Shown: positions 19,672 to 26,160 of the stretch, piece after piece
How the letters are laid out: each line of letters opens with the position of its first letter
Position numbering within the stretch: position 1 is the first letter of the stretch
From: Limosilactobacillus reuteri
Lineage (GTDB): Bacteria > Bacillota > Bacilli > Lactobacillales > Lactobacillaceae
Reading direction: 5' to 3'
Length of the DNA: 37,387 bases
Assembly (NCBI RefSeq): GCF_020784725.1
Contig: NZ_JAJGTZ010000042.1
Location: forward strand, 2,501-39,887
The notes under the pieces: model-generated
Told to the model about the DNA's origin: nothing
Databases searched by the model: none
The model's input: the letters and a program-made list of their open reading frames with translations, nothing else
Made by a program: the position numbers and the translations under genes

Positions 19672-20994
19672 ATGGATAGTACAGTAACTAACACCCCGCA
19701 GACAAACAGCAAGCTTAATGTAAAACTTGATCCTGTCAAGACAGTAATTTTGGCTTCGATGATGGGAACGGCAATTGAGTTTTTCGATTTTTACGCTTAC
19801 GGGACTGCATCTGCTGCCTATTTTCCCAAAATTTTCTTTCCGCAAATGACCCCTTTACTCGCAACACTTTTAAGTTTGTTGACTTTTGGAGTAGCCTTTG
19901 TAGCACGCCCGGTAGGTTCCTTCCTATTTGGACATTATGGTGATCGTTTAGGACGCAAGAAAACACTTGTGGTCTCACTTTTAGTAATGGGAGTGGCGAC
20001 GGTAGCCATTGGTTTCATTCCTAGCTATCAGGTTATCGGCGTTTGGGGAGCATTGTTACTTTGCCTTTGTCGGTTTGTCCAAGGAATCGGGCTTGGTGGT
20101 GAATGGTCCGGGGCTGTATTAGTAGCTACTGAAAATGCTCCGGCTAACAAGCGGGCGTTATATGGTGCATTTCCGGAAGTGGGAGCACCAATCGGATTCT
20201 TCCTATGCAATGGCTTATTCTTTGCTTTAGAACGGGTACTAACACCAACGCAAATGATGACGTTTGGTTGGCGAATTCCTTTTTGGGCCTCGGCTGTTTT
20301 AGTCGTTATAGGGCTGTATGTCCGCCGTCGTTTACAGGAAACACCTTTGTTTAAGTTGGCTCAAGAACGTGATAACACAACTGCTTCGCCTCTTCGTGAA
20401 GTATTCAAATCTAATTGGCGTGAAATCTTAAAAGGAACTTTCATCATGGGAGCAACCTATGCACTATTCTTTACATTAACAACCTGGTCATTATCATATG
20501 CTACAACAGCTTTAGGTTTTACCTCTTCGGAATTTTTATTATTATTAATGGGTGCAATTGTTGAATTCGCTGTTTTGATCATGTTAACTTCTGTATTAGC
20601 GGATCGTGTTGGTCGGAAAAAAGTTTTATTAACTGCGTCAGTAGCACTAGTTGGCTATTCCTTGGTATTCCCATATTTCCTTACAGGACAACATAACTTA
20701 GTTGGCGTTTTACTCTTCTTAGGACTAGGATTCTTAGTAATGGGTACTCTTTATGGTCCAGTCGGCGCTGTTTTGCCTGAACTGTTCCCAACCAGAGTTC
20801 GCTATTCTGGTGCAGGAATTACTTATAACTTAGCTGCAGTGGTTGGGGCAGCGGTTGCTCCAACTGTAACAACTTGGTTAATTGCTAATTATGGATTACA
20901 TTCGGCTGGATATTATATGCTAGTTTTATCAGTACTAGCAGTTATTTCTTGGTTATTGACAAAAGAAACAAAAGATGTGGATTATACTAAATAA
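19672..20994 (+). CDS. MFS transporter, metabolite:H+ symporter (MHS) type
   Basis: A 440-residue, 12-helix major facilitator. The N-terminus GTAIEFFDFYAYGTAS is typical of the MHS group (shikimate, proline/betaine, dicarboxylate carriers). The loop 2-3 signature is GHYGDRLGRKK, with a second copy at the start of the C-half (LADRVGRKK), and GGEWSGAVLVATENAP is also MHS-like. It probably imports an organic acid or betaine with protons; the substrate cannot be read from sequence. GAGAGG lies upstream of the ATG. Transcription is likely controlled by the structured leader before it. Confidence 0.9.
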   Translation: MDSTVTNTPQTNSKLNVKLDPVKTVILASMMGTAIEFFDFYAYGTASAAYFPKIFFPQMTPLLATLLSLLTFGVAFVARPVGSFLFGHYGDRLGRKKTLVVSLLVMGVATVAIGFIPSYQVIGVWGALLLCLCRFVQGIGLGGEWSGAVLVATENAPANKRALYGAFPEVGAPIGFFLCNGLFFALERVLTPTQMMTFGWRIPFWASAVLVVIGLYVRRRLQETPLFKLAQERDNTTASPLREVFKSNWREILKGTFIMGATYALFFTLTTWSLSYATTALGFTSSEFLLLLMGAIVEFAVLIMLTSVLADRVGRKKVLLTASVALVGYSLVFPYFLTGQHNLVGVLLFLGLGFLVMGTLYGPVGAVLPELFPTRVRYSGAGITYNLAAVVGAAVAPTVTTWLIANYGLHSAGYYMLVLSVLAVISWLLTKETKDVDYTK

Positions 20995-23385: not shown

Positions 23386-24804
23386 TTATTCAGTTGCTAA
23401 GTTTGCAGCAAGGCTTTTGACTGGGACTTTCACGAGCATTCCTGCAATGATAGTTAGGATCGTAACAAGGAATGGGAAAAATGCCCAAGGAATGAAGCTT
23501 AATGGATTGATTTGTAAGGTACTAGCGATGAATACTCCAGAAACACTCCATGGGATAATTGCGTTGACTGCGGCTCCTGCATCATTGAGAATCCGGGTCA
23601 AATCAACCCGTTTTAAGCCTAATTTATCAAATGATGGGAGAAATGATTGCCCAGGAAGAATAATTGCGAGGTAGTGTTCCCCAACAAGAAGATTAATCCC
23701 AATGCAAGTAAGGGCTGTGGAGAATGCTAATCGACCAGGCGTCTTTACAATTCCAGTTAAGTGAGTAATGATGGCGCTAATAATATTGAACTTGATCAAT
23801 AAACCACCTAAAGCAAGCGCAAAGATAATTAGGGCGAGAGAAGTAAGCATACTAGAAATACCGCCTTTAGAAAGCAGTGTATCGATTGTTTTGTCACCAG
23901 TATGCGAAACGTAACCAGTCATGATGGTATTAGTAATCGTAGTGAGGCTGGTTTTAGGTGCATGAATCCAGCCAAGTACGACCGCGAATAGTGAGCCAAG
24001 GCCAAGAGAAGGAATAGCAGGAACTTGGAAAATGGCTAGTACGATTAGGAGCAGAACTGGGAGAAGAGCCCATCCGGAGATCCAGAACCCATTTTGTAGC
24101 CCGGCCATCATTTGATGAACGGCATCTAAACTAACATTTTTGGAATTTAACCCTAAGAAAGTGTAAAGAATAAGACAGATTGCCCAGGCAGGGATATCGG
24201 TGGTGAGCAGGGATTTAATATGCTTGTAGATATTAATTTCGCCCACACTGGCAGCTAGATTCGTTGTGCCTGAAAGTGGGGAAATATTCGAACCACAGAA
24301 AGCCCCTGAAACAATTACCCCCGCAGTTAAACCGGGGTTAATTTTAAGAGTTGCGCCAATGCCAATAAAGGCAATTCCCATTGTCGATACAGTGGTAAAT
24401 GAGCTTCCGCAAGCGACCCCAACAAGGGTACAAACGATAAAAACTGTTGGTAAGAAGAACTTTACAGAAATAATTTCAAACCCAAAGTACATAATTGTTG
24501 GAATAGTTCCTGAGAAAATCCAGGTAGCAATTAAGACACCGATAGAAAGAAAGATAATGAGGGGGTCAACACCGGCTCGCAAACCATGACGCATTCCATT
24601 CATTATTGTATCCCATTTAAATCCACGAATTCGCCCGTAAACAGCAAGCAAAATAAATGAAATAAATAATGGAGCTTGCGGTTCTTGATGCTTAAAAATA
24701 ATAGGGTAGCCTAAGATGCCTAAAATAACGCCAAGAATAAGTAAACTTTCGCTAAAACCAATCACTGGCTCAGCACTATTTTTTGGTTTGTTAATAGTCT
24801 TCAT
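23386..24804 (-). CDS. NhaC-family carrier, probably a tyrosine-related transporter
   Basis: A 472-residue membrane protein with about 11-12 helices and NhaC signatures: YGRIRGFKWDTIMNGM, GVACGSSFTTVSTMGIAFIGIG, SGAFCGSNISPLSGTTNLAAS, and the C-terminal IPWSVSGVFIASTL. Characterised NhaC proteins exchange Na+ for H+, but close relatives under amino-acid-specific regulation have been predicted to be amino-acid carriers, including tyrosine (YheL type). The leader here contains a peptide with four tyrosine codons and an attenuator, which points to tyrosine as the substrate or signal. The ribosome binding site is AAGGAG. Confidence 0.88.
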   Translation of the reverse strand: MKTINKPKNSAEPVIGFSESLLILGVILGILGYPIIFKHQEPQAPLFISFILLAVYGRIRGFKWDTIMNGMRHGLRAGVDPLIIFLSIGVLIATWIFSGTIPTIMYFGFEIISVKFFLPTVFIVCTLVGVACGSSFTTVSTMGIAFIGIGATLKINPGLTAGVIVSGAFCGSNISPLSGTTNLAASVGEINIYKHIKSLLTTDIPAWAICLILYTFLGLNSKNVSLDAVHQMMAGLQNGFWISGWALLPVLLLIVLAIFQVPAIPSLGLGSLFAVVLGWIHAPKTSLTTITNTIMTGYVSHTGDKTIDTLLSKGGISSMLTSLALIIFALALGGLLIKFNIISAIITHLTGIVKTPGRLAFSTALTCIGINLLVGEHYLAIILPGQSFLPSFDKLGLKRVDLTRILNDAGAAVNAIIPWSVSGVFIASTLQINPLSFIPWAFFPFLVTILTIIAGMLVKVPVKSLAANLATE

Positions 24805-24829
24805 TGTGTAATTCTCCTTGTTTTTTAAT

Positions 24830-24997
24830 AAAAAAAGACCAACTAGATCAGCGGCATTTACTTAATCTAGTTGGTATTACGGTAGTATAAAAATCGCGGG
24901 AAACTACACGCCCTTACTAGATTAATGTACCTAGCAAAGGACTCATTAAAACAACCCTGCTTAGGTACGAACACCGCTGTCCGTACCTAAATGAGTA
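24830..24997 (-). promoter_or_regulatory. attenuator with alternative hairpins upstream of the NhaC-type gene
   Basis: Read on the minus strand, the elements in order are: ACTCATT (24996-24990) pairing AATGAGT (24947-24941) around TTAGGTACG/CGTACCTAA (24990-24982/24969-24961); TAGGTAC (24933-24927), which can steal GTACCTA; TTAATCTAG (24925-24917), which pairs perfectly with CTAGATTAA (24870-24862); and the terminator ACCAACTAGAT/ATCTAGTTGGT (24875-24865/24848-24838) with T7. The TTAATCTAG pairing destroys the terminator, so it is an antiterminator. A leader peptide with clustered Tyr codons ends eight bases before this array. The pairings are seen; the switch is inferred. Confidence 0.75.
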
Positions 24998-25004
24998 CAG
25001 ACAA

Positions 25005-25064
25005 TTATGAACGGTAAGCATAGTTGTTATAATACTTGGTTGAAGTTAATGAGTGTTGAATCAT
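25005..25064 (-). CDS. tyrosine-rich leader peptide
   Basis: A 19-residue frame, ATG at 25064-25062 with GAAAGGA ten bases upstream, reads MIQHSLTSTKYYNNYAYRS. Four of six residues 11-17 subset positions are Tyr (YY-NN-Y-A-Y; Tyr11, Tyr12, Tyr15, Tyr17), followed at once by the alternative hairpins. An additional ACTCATT within its coding region can also pair with AATGAGT downstream, so ribosome position would alter folding. It probably senses charged tRNA-Tyr by ribosome stalling. Confidence 0.7.
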   Translation of the reverse strand: MIQHSLTSTKYYNNYAYRS

Positions 25065-25134
25065 GTTAGTTGTTCCTTTCAAGTTAAGTTGTAATCATTA
25101 AAACATTCTAATTTTATTTTGTCAAACTCTAATT

Positions 25135-26160
25135 TTAAAATTCACCAGAAATATCCTTATCAGAAAATGAATGAGGATCGGGGACGAAAGAAATATCAGT
25201 GTCAATTATTCCAAATTTATCTCGCATTACATTTTCGATGTGCTCTGATAATTGGAAACTCTTGAGGATCGTCATTTTAGCGTTAACCATCACGGAAGCA
25301 TCAAGCGTGACCACGTTTCCGTTATAGTGAGCTTTTAGTTCGACAACTTTTACAACGTGCGGAATATTAGTGATTGTTTGGCGGTATTCCTGTTCAGCCT
25401 GAGGATCAAAGTAGTCAGTTAGGTTGAGACTACTTTCAAAGAAAATTTTTAGTCCAGAATACAGAATAAAGAAACCAACGACAATACTGGTAGCACCATC
25501 AAGCCAACGAAGATTAAAGAGGAGGGCACCGCCAATTGCAATCAAAGTTCCAATACTTGTGAAAGCATCACTCAGGCTATCTTGGGCAGAAGCAAGCAAC
25601 GCGGCGTTTTTTAATTTAAGTCCTGTTTGTCGGTTCATATACCAAACAACTAGCATAATAACTGACGCAATTCCGGCCCCAATCAATGCGACTGGTTGTG
25701 GAACCACCCGACTTGCAGGATTGAGGAGGCTTTTAATGCCATCGATGATAACGCTTAAGGCAATCGCAACCATAACGACCGCTGTGACAAGGGAAAAAAT
25801 TGTCTCATAACGCCAACGAACGAATTGTACTCGTTGGTCAGATCCCATGTGTGCTTGATAGTTTCCAGAAGGTAGCCGTGCGCCAATGATATCATCATCA
25901 TCGACATCCTGGGCAATGTGTAAGCCCATCATCAGTAAAAAGGTTGAGATAATTCCCGAAAGGTTGTTGAAAGCATCGGCCCGTAACGTCTGCGATTTAC
26001 TTATTTCAGCTAACCAGTACTCGATAATTGAAATAACAACATAAGCAACCAAGTTATAGATTAAATGGTGTTGGGAAGCTCGAATCTTTGCTAGTTCATT
26101 TGCTTGCGTTTTTTCCCAGTTATTCATTTCTTCGGTTGTATGTCTTTTAAATTTAGTCAT
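25135..26160 (-). CDS. cation diffusion facilitator, probably Mn-type
   Basis: A 341-residue CDF transporter with six predicted helices and a cytoplasmic ferredoxin-like C-terminal domain (about 265-335: AHYNGNVVTLDASVMVNAKMT). Metal-site residues are Asp62/Asn66 in helix 2 (ADAFNNLSG) and Asp194/Asp198 in helix 5 (AQDSLSDAF). The D/N-x3-N/D pattern instead of HxxxD is typical of manganese (MntE-like) rather than zinc exporters. It would expel metal in exchange for protons. An Asp-rich loop (DVDDDD, 85-90) between helices 2 and 3 is unusual and could bind cations. Confidence 0.9.
   Translation of the reverse strand: MTKFKRHTTEEMNNWEKTQANELAKIRASQHHLIYNLVAYVVISIIEYWLAEISKSQTLRADAFNNLSGIISTFLLMMGLHIAQDVDDDDIIGARLPSGNYQAHMGSDQRVQFVRWRYETIFSLVTAVVMVAIALSVIIDGIKSLLNPASRVVPQPVALIGAGIASVIMLVVWYMNRQTGLKLKNAALLASAQDSLSDAFTSIGTLIAIGGALLFNLRWLDGATSIVVGFFILYSGLKIFFESSLNLTDYFDPQAEQEYRQTITNIPHVVKVVELKAHYNGNVVTLDASVMVNAKMTILKSFQLSEHIENVMRDKFGIIDTDISFVPDPHSFSDKDISGEF

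Follow-up and report, generated by a model that had tools for sequence, protein, structure and literature searches.

The leader RNA in front of an NhaC-family carrier gene in Limosilactobacillus reuteri very probably acts as a ribosome-mediated transcription attenuator, sensing charged tRNA-Tyr to control this gene, whose product would most likely be a tyrosine carrier. The leader lies in a stretch of 37,387 nucleotides (the window), on the minus strand from 25064 to 24830, where a 19-codon open reading frame (ORF) and an intrinsic terminator stand between a promoter and the NhaC-family gene. The observations behind this reading are a conserved leader, a terminator, covarying helices, the absence of a T-box, a predicted switch that depends on ribosome position, and leader peptides that are nearly Tyr-only. 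Ribosome stalling and termination in the cell, like the substrate of the carrier, are what we infer from them.

Upstream of the promoter, a CDF cation transporter gene ends at 25135 on the minus strand. After the leader ORF come about 175 nt of structured RNA, whose end at 24830 is formed by an 11-bp terminator and its T7, and then the NhaC-family gene (Table 1). The folding of the leader RNA of the window gave a z of -4.53, with none of 200 shuffles equally stable. A preliminary description of this DNA had proposed a leader ORF with a good ribosome binding site and Tyr codons, which is indeed present at 25064-25005 of the minus strand, and two sets of mutually exclusive pairings. These are present as well and are kept with compensatory changes, namely, TTAGGTACG/CGTACCTAA (D:E) versus TAGGTAC/GTACCTA (E:H), and TTAATCTAG/CTAGATTAA (I:J) versus the 11-bp terminator followed by T7 (J:K, 24848-24830). 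The helices C:D, B:F, and H:I go beyond those pairings and complete the relay. The same description had a repeated ACTCATT pair with AATGAGT; the copy inside the ORF holds as part of helix A:G, whereas the copy after the ORF was rejected as a regulatory repeat, being present in only 5 of the 30 aligned leaders, all near relatives.

Table 1. Features of the NhaC leader locus, in window coordinates
Feature	Position	Strand	Remarks
Promoter	25097..25125	-	-35 TTGACA (25125-25120), 17-nt spacer, -10 TTTAAT (25102-25097); predicted, aligned in orthologues
Shine-Dalgarno AAAGGA of the leader ORF	25074..25079	-	Ends 9 nt before the ATG; conserved in orthologues
Leader ORF, 19 codons and stop, MIQHSLTSTKYYNNYAYRS	25005..25064	-	In 32 of 33 orthologous loci at at least 77% identity
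Tandem Tyr codons 11-12 (TATTAT), proposed stall site	25029..25034	-	Conservation; folding-scan maximum here
Segment A (codons 4-7)	25046..25054	-	Partner G; A:G paired in 92.4% of cells, 7 of 8 pairs changed on both sides
Segment B (codons 13-17)	25015..25027	-	Partner F; alignment of leaders
Segment C	24995..25002	-	Partner D; 2 nt past the stop codon (0-2 nt in relatives)
Segment D	24979..24990	-	Partner C (24986-24979) or E (24990-24982)
Segment E	24958..24969	-	Partner D or H; four-column chain C119-D133-E152-H195
Segment F	24951..24963	-	Partner B of the leader; overlaps the 3' part of E
Segment G	24941..24949	-	Partner A of the leader; alignment of leaders
Segment H	24927..24939	-	Partner E (24936-24927) or I (24939-24931)
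Segment I	24912..24925	-	Partner H (24920-24912) or J (24925-24917)
Segment J	24862..24875	-	Partner I (24870-24862) or K (24875-24865)
Segment K (24848-24838) and T7 (24836-24830), intrinsic terminator with J	24830..24848	-	J:K paired in 95.3% of cells, 6 of 11 pairs changed on both sides
NhaC-family carrier, 472 aa, proposed tyrosine carrier	23386..24804	-	Pfam PF03553; TIGR00931

Read from the sequence, the locus combines the features by which an attenuator is recognized: a short ORF, preceded by a ribosome binding site, lies downstream of the promoter and ahead of the gene, its tandem codons specify the amino acid of the regulated pathway (presumably that of tyrosine), and terminator and anti-terminator helices exclude each other. 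Under tyrosine shortage, the ribosome would stall at the tandem Tyr codons 11-12 and mask the leader segments A and B. C:D would then form, leaving E free for H and I free for J; the J:K terminator would be blocked, and the NhaC-family gene would be transcribed. With tyrosine in good supply, the ribosome would reach the stop codon and cover C, 2 nt beyond it; D:E, H:I, and J:K would then form and transcription would end. An untranslated leader would form A:G and B:F, with F taking part of E, and would likewise terminate by default.

Conservation of the leader frame and covariation of its helices

NhaC homologues were found in 49 of 50 Limosilactobacillus genomes. After removal of 8 duplicates, the orthologue set comprised 33 loci at at least 77% identity, all from this genus, and the leader ORF is present in 32 of them. 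The tandem pair at codons 11-12 reads YY in 31 of the 32 leaders and FY in L080. The distance from this pair to the stop is 9 codons in 29 of the 32 leaders, 8 in L045 and L046, and 7 in L078, where the leader is degenerate (positions were read by eye in L038 and L080 and by script in the others). The later Tyr codons vary among NhaC leaders (YNNDAY, YYYNAAY, YYNNAADR), and synonymous TAC/TAT changes occur. In L030 (genome G035), an NhaC orthologue at 97% identity, the promoter-leader region is wholly missing, and the ATG of the gene directly follows the stop codon of the upstream gene. The alignment of orthologues, which the preliminary description had proposed as a check, returned a conserved frame and Tyr pair together with compensatory changes in the helices. 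Extra sequence separates the attenuator terminator from the NhaC gene in L038 (about 380 nt) and L040 (about 190 nt).

Covariation was assessed in alignment A1, which holds 30 leaders (29 distinct) and leaves out the degenerate L078 as well as L044, whose leader peptide is identical to that of L042. The terminating set D:E, H:I, J:K is paired in 94.6% of cells, with 40 cells changed on both sides, and the leader-sequestering set A:G, B:F in 88.8%, with 27. For the anti-terminating set C:D, E:H, I:J, these values are 96.8% and 29, keeping in the count the outermost I:J pair (A1 columns 198:278), which is separated by gaps and pairs in 64.3%. The double-change counts of each set were reached by none of 500 shuffles, statistics that ignore the relatedness of the leaders, and slid controls pair in 21.6-48.0%. 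For the anti-terminating set, the number of pairs with double changes was reached by 14 of 500 shuffles and the number of pair types by 71 of 500. Unguided RNAalifold on the leaders returns A:G, B:F, D:E, H:I, and J:K.

Additionally, the changes were placed on the branches of the NhaC tree by parsimony (29 leaders, L046 being absent from the tree; ties resolved in one fixed way), where 29 branch changes keep a pair by double change, compared with a mean of 1.7 for slid partners. They are distributed as A:G 8, B:F 1, C:D 1, D:E 3, E:H 1, H:I 3, I:J 2, and J:K 10, and independent compensatory changes within NhaC leaders are therefore few for B:F, C:D, and E:H (1 each). The independent-pairs test on a single column pair gave only 2 pairs. 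The chain of columns C119, D133, E152, and H195 reads T-A-T-A in nine near relatives and in L039, and mostly C/T-G-C-G elsewhere, with intermediates in L036, L038, L040, and L041 and a mispaired C in L051 and L079, a pattern that would follow from a need for each segment to match two alternative partners. Covariation in these alignments supports the anti-terminating, terminating, and leader-sequestering helix sets.

Strong RNA conservation outside the ORF, for example the consensus GACGTTCGCACCTAAGCA, would also fit a riboswitch for a metabolite or an ion, or a leader bound by a protein, in which the overlapping ORF only couples translation, and NhaC is named for Na+/H+ exchange. We consider such an RNA very improbable here, because much of the conserved sequence falls in the alternating segments, and because the related RNAs described below precede varied genes that share aromatic amino acids and have leader peptides holding Tyr/Phe runs. 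No Rfam family matches the window leader above its cut-off, a PreQ1 match of 13.6 bits against 39 being at the level of chance. The trpB motif RF04312, the best weak match by bits (17.6 against 59, E 8.6), was likewise rejected as the identity of the leader and attributed to chance.

Ribosome position and codon content

To relate these helices to translation, RNA from the leader ATG (rather than the promoter) to just after J was folded at equilibrium with a ribosome footprint masked. With the first Tyr codon in the A site, the mean pair probability of E:H exceeded 0.5 in 18 of 30 NhaC leaders, the window included, compared with 0 of 30 without a ribosome or with a ribosome at the stop codon; 12 of the 30 gave no equilibrium switch. 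When the stall position was scanned, the mean E:H was 0.60, 0.58, and 0.53 at -1, 0, and +1 relative to the first Tyr codon and then fell to 0.30 at +4, 0.06 at +5, 0.03 at +6, and 0.00 from +7. This profile matches the conservation of the peptide, as the Tyr pair is kept, the Tyr at +4 is variable, and the Tyr at +6 falls outside the effective range.

For the window leader, the pair probabilities on stalling are C:D 1.00, E:H 0.93, and I:J 0.93. The stop-codon state gives D:E 0.99, E:H 0.00, H:I 0.48, and I:J 0.50, and the state without a ribosome gives D:E 0.68, with E:H, H:I, and I:J at the same values as at the stop. Since I:J and H:I are nearly equal in these last two states, a clean decision would need co-transcriptional folding. 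Among the 30 NhaC leaders, I:J beats H:I in 5 without a ribosome and in 4 with a ribosome at the stop.

Over the last ten codons, the share of Tyr in Tyr plus Phe is 0.96 in 27 distinct NhaC leaders (4 of which hold one Phe), compared with 0.61 in 43 leaders of MFS genes, 0.59 in 19 of biosynthesis genes, and 0.44 in 11 of ABC/APC genes, the MFS group being confirmed by DNA motif (47/47 loci) and the other groups by reading plus Pfam/NCBIfam for some, and aminotransferase leaders and a few others being left out of the grouping. Phe is absent from the central codon of helix B:F in the 30 NhaC leaders, which have Tyr there in 23 cases, Ala in 4, Asp in 2, and Asn in 1, and the middle position is mismatched in 25 of them; among 54 other leaders, 31 have Phe at this codon and 10 have Tyr. 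The simplest reading would be selection for a Tyr codon, acting against helix B:F.

The end of the peptide could be read differently. In an arrest-peptide attenuator, the kind of system represented by TnaC, free tyrosine or another aromatic compound would act with the nascent peptide to arrest the ribosome at the stop codon, holding C and causing termination, and the signal would be the free amino acid and not charged tRNA. The masked folding is compatible with this, since D:E needs exactly a ribosome at the stop codon, and peptides of the wider family end alike just before it (..YYFGFAYFR, ..LNNYYFSYFR). However, the residues next to the stop vary in NhaC leaders (RS, RA, YL, RN, VV, SA, YG) and it is the upstream Tyr pair that is kept; helix B:F explains much of the peptide end, and the Tyr/Phe content tracks the class of the gene. 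We therefore regard arrest at the stop codon as improbable and favor stalling at the Tyr codons when charged tRNA-Tyr is scarce.

T-boxes and the probable link to tyrosine

The preliminary description had set a Tyr-codon leader against the T-box known from such genes elsewhere, and both halves of that contrast were borne out. Searching window positions 24700-25250 with all of Rfam returned no T-box (RF00230) even at E ≤ 10, although the genome as a whole yields 26 T-box matches at E ≤ 0.001, of which 13 exceed the cut-off. One T-box, under the cut-off, precedes an NhaC paralogue at 44% identity in the same genome (L018). In 7 of 17 relatives, the search found a T-box; these matches score 54.7-83.2 bits, with E ≤ 3.2e-9 although none reaches the gathering score of 93.

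On a tree of NhaC proteins (64 rows; a quick method with long branches flagged, omitting L087, L046, and fragments below 300 residues), a five-locus T-box clade (L057, L058, L081-L083) is the sister group of the leader clade, which comprises 31 rows and L030, and this relationship has starred support. The three leader states require 5 changes on this tree, compared with 27.7 when shuffled, the state "none" having been assigned to some rows from the T-box core motif alone. For L058, L081, L082, and L083, Infernal places UAC (Tyr) at what we take to be the specifier position within the aligned T-boxes. Branching next outside these two, a clade of L059 and L084-L086 contains loci that neighbor tyrP; the gene order in L059 is tyrP (tyrosine-tyramine antiporter, above cut-off), nhaC, tyrS, and a partial gene upstream in L084 also fits tyrP best.

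That T-boxes precede NhaC in the sister clade, and that the T-box core motif (a motif match only) stands before 53 of 60 sampled NhaC-family genes of the family, might suggest a T-box or degenerate T-box at the window leader as well, reading tRNA-Tyr directly and leaving the ORF incidental. Such a reading is almost certainly wrong, as no T-box appears at the site at E ≤ 10 though the same search finds them in relatives, and as codons are conserved here rather than an RNA specifier loop. The Tyr-codon attenuator thus appears to stand where the sister clade has its T-box.

The carrier matches PF03553 at 164.6 against a cut-off of 23 and TIGR00931 at 369.3 bits against a cut-off of 370. Its matches in named genomes are labeled Limosilactobacillus in 22 of 25 cases (Candidatus included) and only Lactobacillus in 3, L. 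agrestis and L. balticus being the nearest among the matches listed, at 95-96% identity. We take it to be a tyrosine transporter, a reading helped by the order tyrP-nhaC-tyrS and by the Tyr T-boxes described before NhaC genes (Wels 2008, PMC2494555). Furthermore, a gene in a tyrosine decarboxylase cluster is named nhaC-2 in PMC4932888.

Further short ORFs occur at NhaC loci with a T-box. In L057, L058, L081, L082, and L083, a short Tyr-codon ORF follows the T-box, for example MDYYYQYFFSDD and stop in L057; its stop overlaps the gene start in L058, and it runs into the gene in L082 and L083. Between T-box and NhaC gene, 25 of 62 distinct upstream regions (L124, L126, L128, L130-L132, L134-L141, L158, L162, L166, L167, L169-L172, L177, L180, L182) carry a very short ORF with the peptide motif GGxxRY, often ending ..CGGNPRY before the stop. 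It varies synonymously, so that the peptide rather than the DNA seems conserved, and it is possibly a second tyrosine sensor. In L065, L067, L089, L077, L133, and L129, an ORF of 37 to 40 aa like MKFIEKLRMQATFAQILNEKEINEVQRNYYYRPYQNY lies in the same interval.

A probable wider aromatic family and known systems

We think it likely that the window leader is one branch of a largely unrecognized family of aromatic amino-acid attenuators, in which a relay RNA, read by a ribosome on a Phe/Tyr peptide, would control genes of aromatic biosynthesis and transport in about half of the sampled Lactobacillaceae genomes. In Limosilactobacillus, the NhaC branch would have taken Tyr codons for Phe despite the helix mismatch and replaced the Tyr T-box of the sister clade, possibly via ancestors with a T-box and a Tyr-coding uORF in tandem.

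The family was traced with covariance models under strict filters and with rough E-values. Model R1, built from the NhaC leaders, has matches in 39 of 50 genomes of the genus at E ≤ 0.1, with second sites in several, and in 15 of 395 genomes of the order at E ≤ 0.01; in the genome of the window, it matches the NhaC leader only. Model R2, built from second-site leaders aligned to R1 (27) and containing only B:F, D:E, and H:I, matches 141 of 301 sampled Lactobacillaceae genomes in 26 of 40 genera, and 13 of 398 genomes of the class (all at E ≤ 0.01); a few Lactobacillales outside Lactobacillaceae carry the RNA too. Of 64 examined R2 matches, 61 have an ORF that is preceded by a ribosome binding site and stops at a shared point of the structure, and most of these ORFs are rich in Tyr and Phe (no such ORF in L268, L240, and L241; L280 is odd).

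The genes downstream of R2 matches, according to Pfam/NCBIfam, include an MFS carrier (L221), chorismate mutase (L227), shikimate dehydrogenase (L287, L244), class I/II aminotransferases (L276, L251), ABC substrate-binding proteins (L275, L198; those in L247 and L240 are nearest TrpX, below cut-off), and an amino-acid permease (L196, nearest BcaP, below cut-off). Those in L263 and L215 have no Pfam/NCBIfam match and look prephenate-dehydratase-like in sequence. Elsewhere in the window, at 19672-20994, an MFS carrier gene is nearest the metabolite/H+ symporter subfamily and a shikimate transporter model, below both cut-offs.

Helices C:D and E:H, which R2 does not contain, are paired in 90.7% of 793 cells across 54 aligned leaders of the wider family, the register of segment H having been set from L223 as the best of 8 shifts (343/373 cells) before this test. 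There are 103 double changes, compared with 31.8 when shuffled (0/500), and slides pair in 25.9-45.1%; pair types are no higher than shuffled (141/500). Masked folding, which covered 36 of the 54 leaders with the RNA extended to J, gave E:H above 0.5 in 4 of 36 on stalling and in 1 of 36 without a ribosome, rising to 9 of 36 on stalling if C:D was forced to form first. With the RNA ending at segment I, 1 of 52 leaders exceeded 0.5 on stalling and 1 without a ribosome. This predicted outcome is weak and counts against a simple equilibrium switch in the wider family.

Over the leaders of 15 second-site loci, no Rfam family matched above cut-off, and RF02863 was not among the matches; matches below threshold, to mir-5879, AaHKsRNA41, and Teg23, overlap or adjoin the leaders in L210, L199, and L203. 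Distant members do match RF02863, "Enterococcus sRNA 2410," which is listed at E ≤ 1 for 11 of 12 loci and lies above cut-off (61 bits) in L249, L242, and L239, before shikimate dehydrogenase genes; it is not among the Rfam matches of the window leader. Northern blots of a 195-nt E. faecium RNA, sRNA_2410, showed two transcripts (PMC5593968). From its name, we take this to be the RNA of RF02863, which, as matched by the distant members in L239-L249, may be a terminated attenuator transcript; the two transcripts described in PMC5593968 would fit. In L249, L247, and L244, weak matches to the RF04312 "trpB ncRNA motif" (33.3-34.5 bits against a cut-off of 59) fall on the same stretch, which is possibly a Trp relative.

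Amino-acid control in Lactobacillales is usually attributed to T-boxes, and a search of the open-licence literature returned no report of a Tyr leader or of the present attenuator family in these bacteria. If our reading is correct, a leader-peptide attenuator family across many genera would change this picture for aromatic amino acids and would give substrate predictions for many carriers named only MFS, NhaC, or ABC. The NhaC genes would then represent a natural experiment, with two kinds of tRNA-Tyr sensor replacing each other before the same gene. The contrast between nearly Tyr-only and Phe/Tyr codons makes the specificity directly testable.

Leader-peptide attenuation is a long-known kind of control. 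The his operon attenuator of enterobacteria, with its six segments A-F, resembles the NhaC leader in several traits: cognate codons in a leader ORF, stems that alternate along a chain and end in a terminator, and termination in the absence of translation. The NhaC leader differs from it in its Tyr codons, its seven alternating segments (C to K), its occurrence in Lactobacillales, and its two long-range helices, which pair the leader ORF with the region between E and H. RF02863 resembles our family in that distant members match it and differs in being filed as an sRNA. The Tyr T-box before NhaC, as described in PMC2494555, shares the gene family, the amino acid, and transcription anti-termination with the window leader, but the T-box RNA reads tRNA directly and is absent at the window leader. 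In Firmicutes, His leader peptides have been predicted in bacilli as T-box replacements (PMC2965389) and also in Peptostreptococcaceae and Erysipelotrichales, with T-boxes reported for these genes in Lactobacillales (PMC9413887). As in these Firmicutes systems, the NhaC leader peptide would take the place of a T-box; unlike it, they control histidine genes, in bacilli, Peptostreptococcaceae, and Erysipelotrichales. A Phe uORF before aroF has been proposed in Acholeplasma (PMC8632094). Finally, the leucine attenuator peptide of the S. aureus ilv-leu operon, for which mutational and reporter data are described (PMC5794164), likewise joins an amino-acid leader peptide to a terminator in a Firmicute; unlike the NhaC leader, it belongs to branched-chain amino acids, another genus, and a biosynthetic operon.
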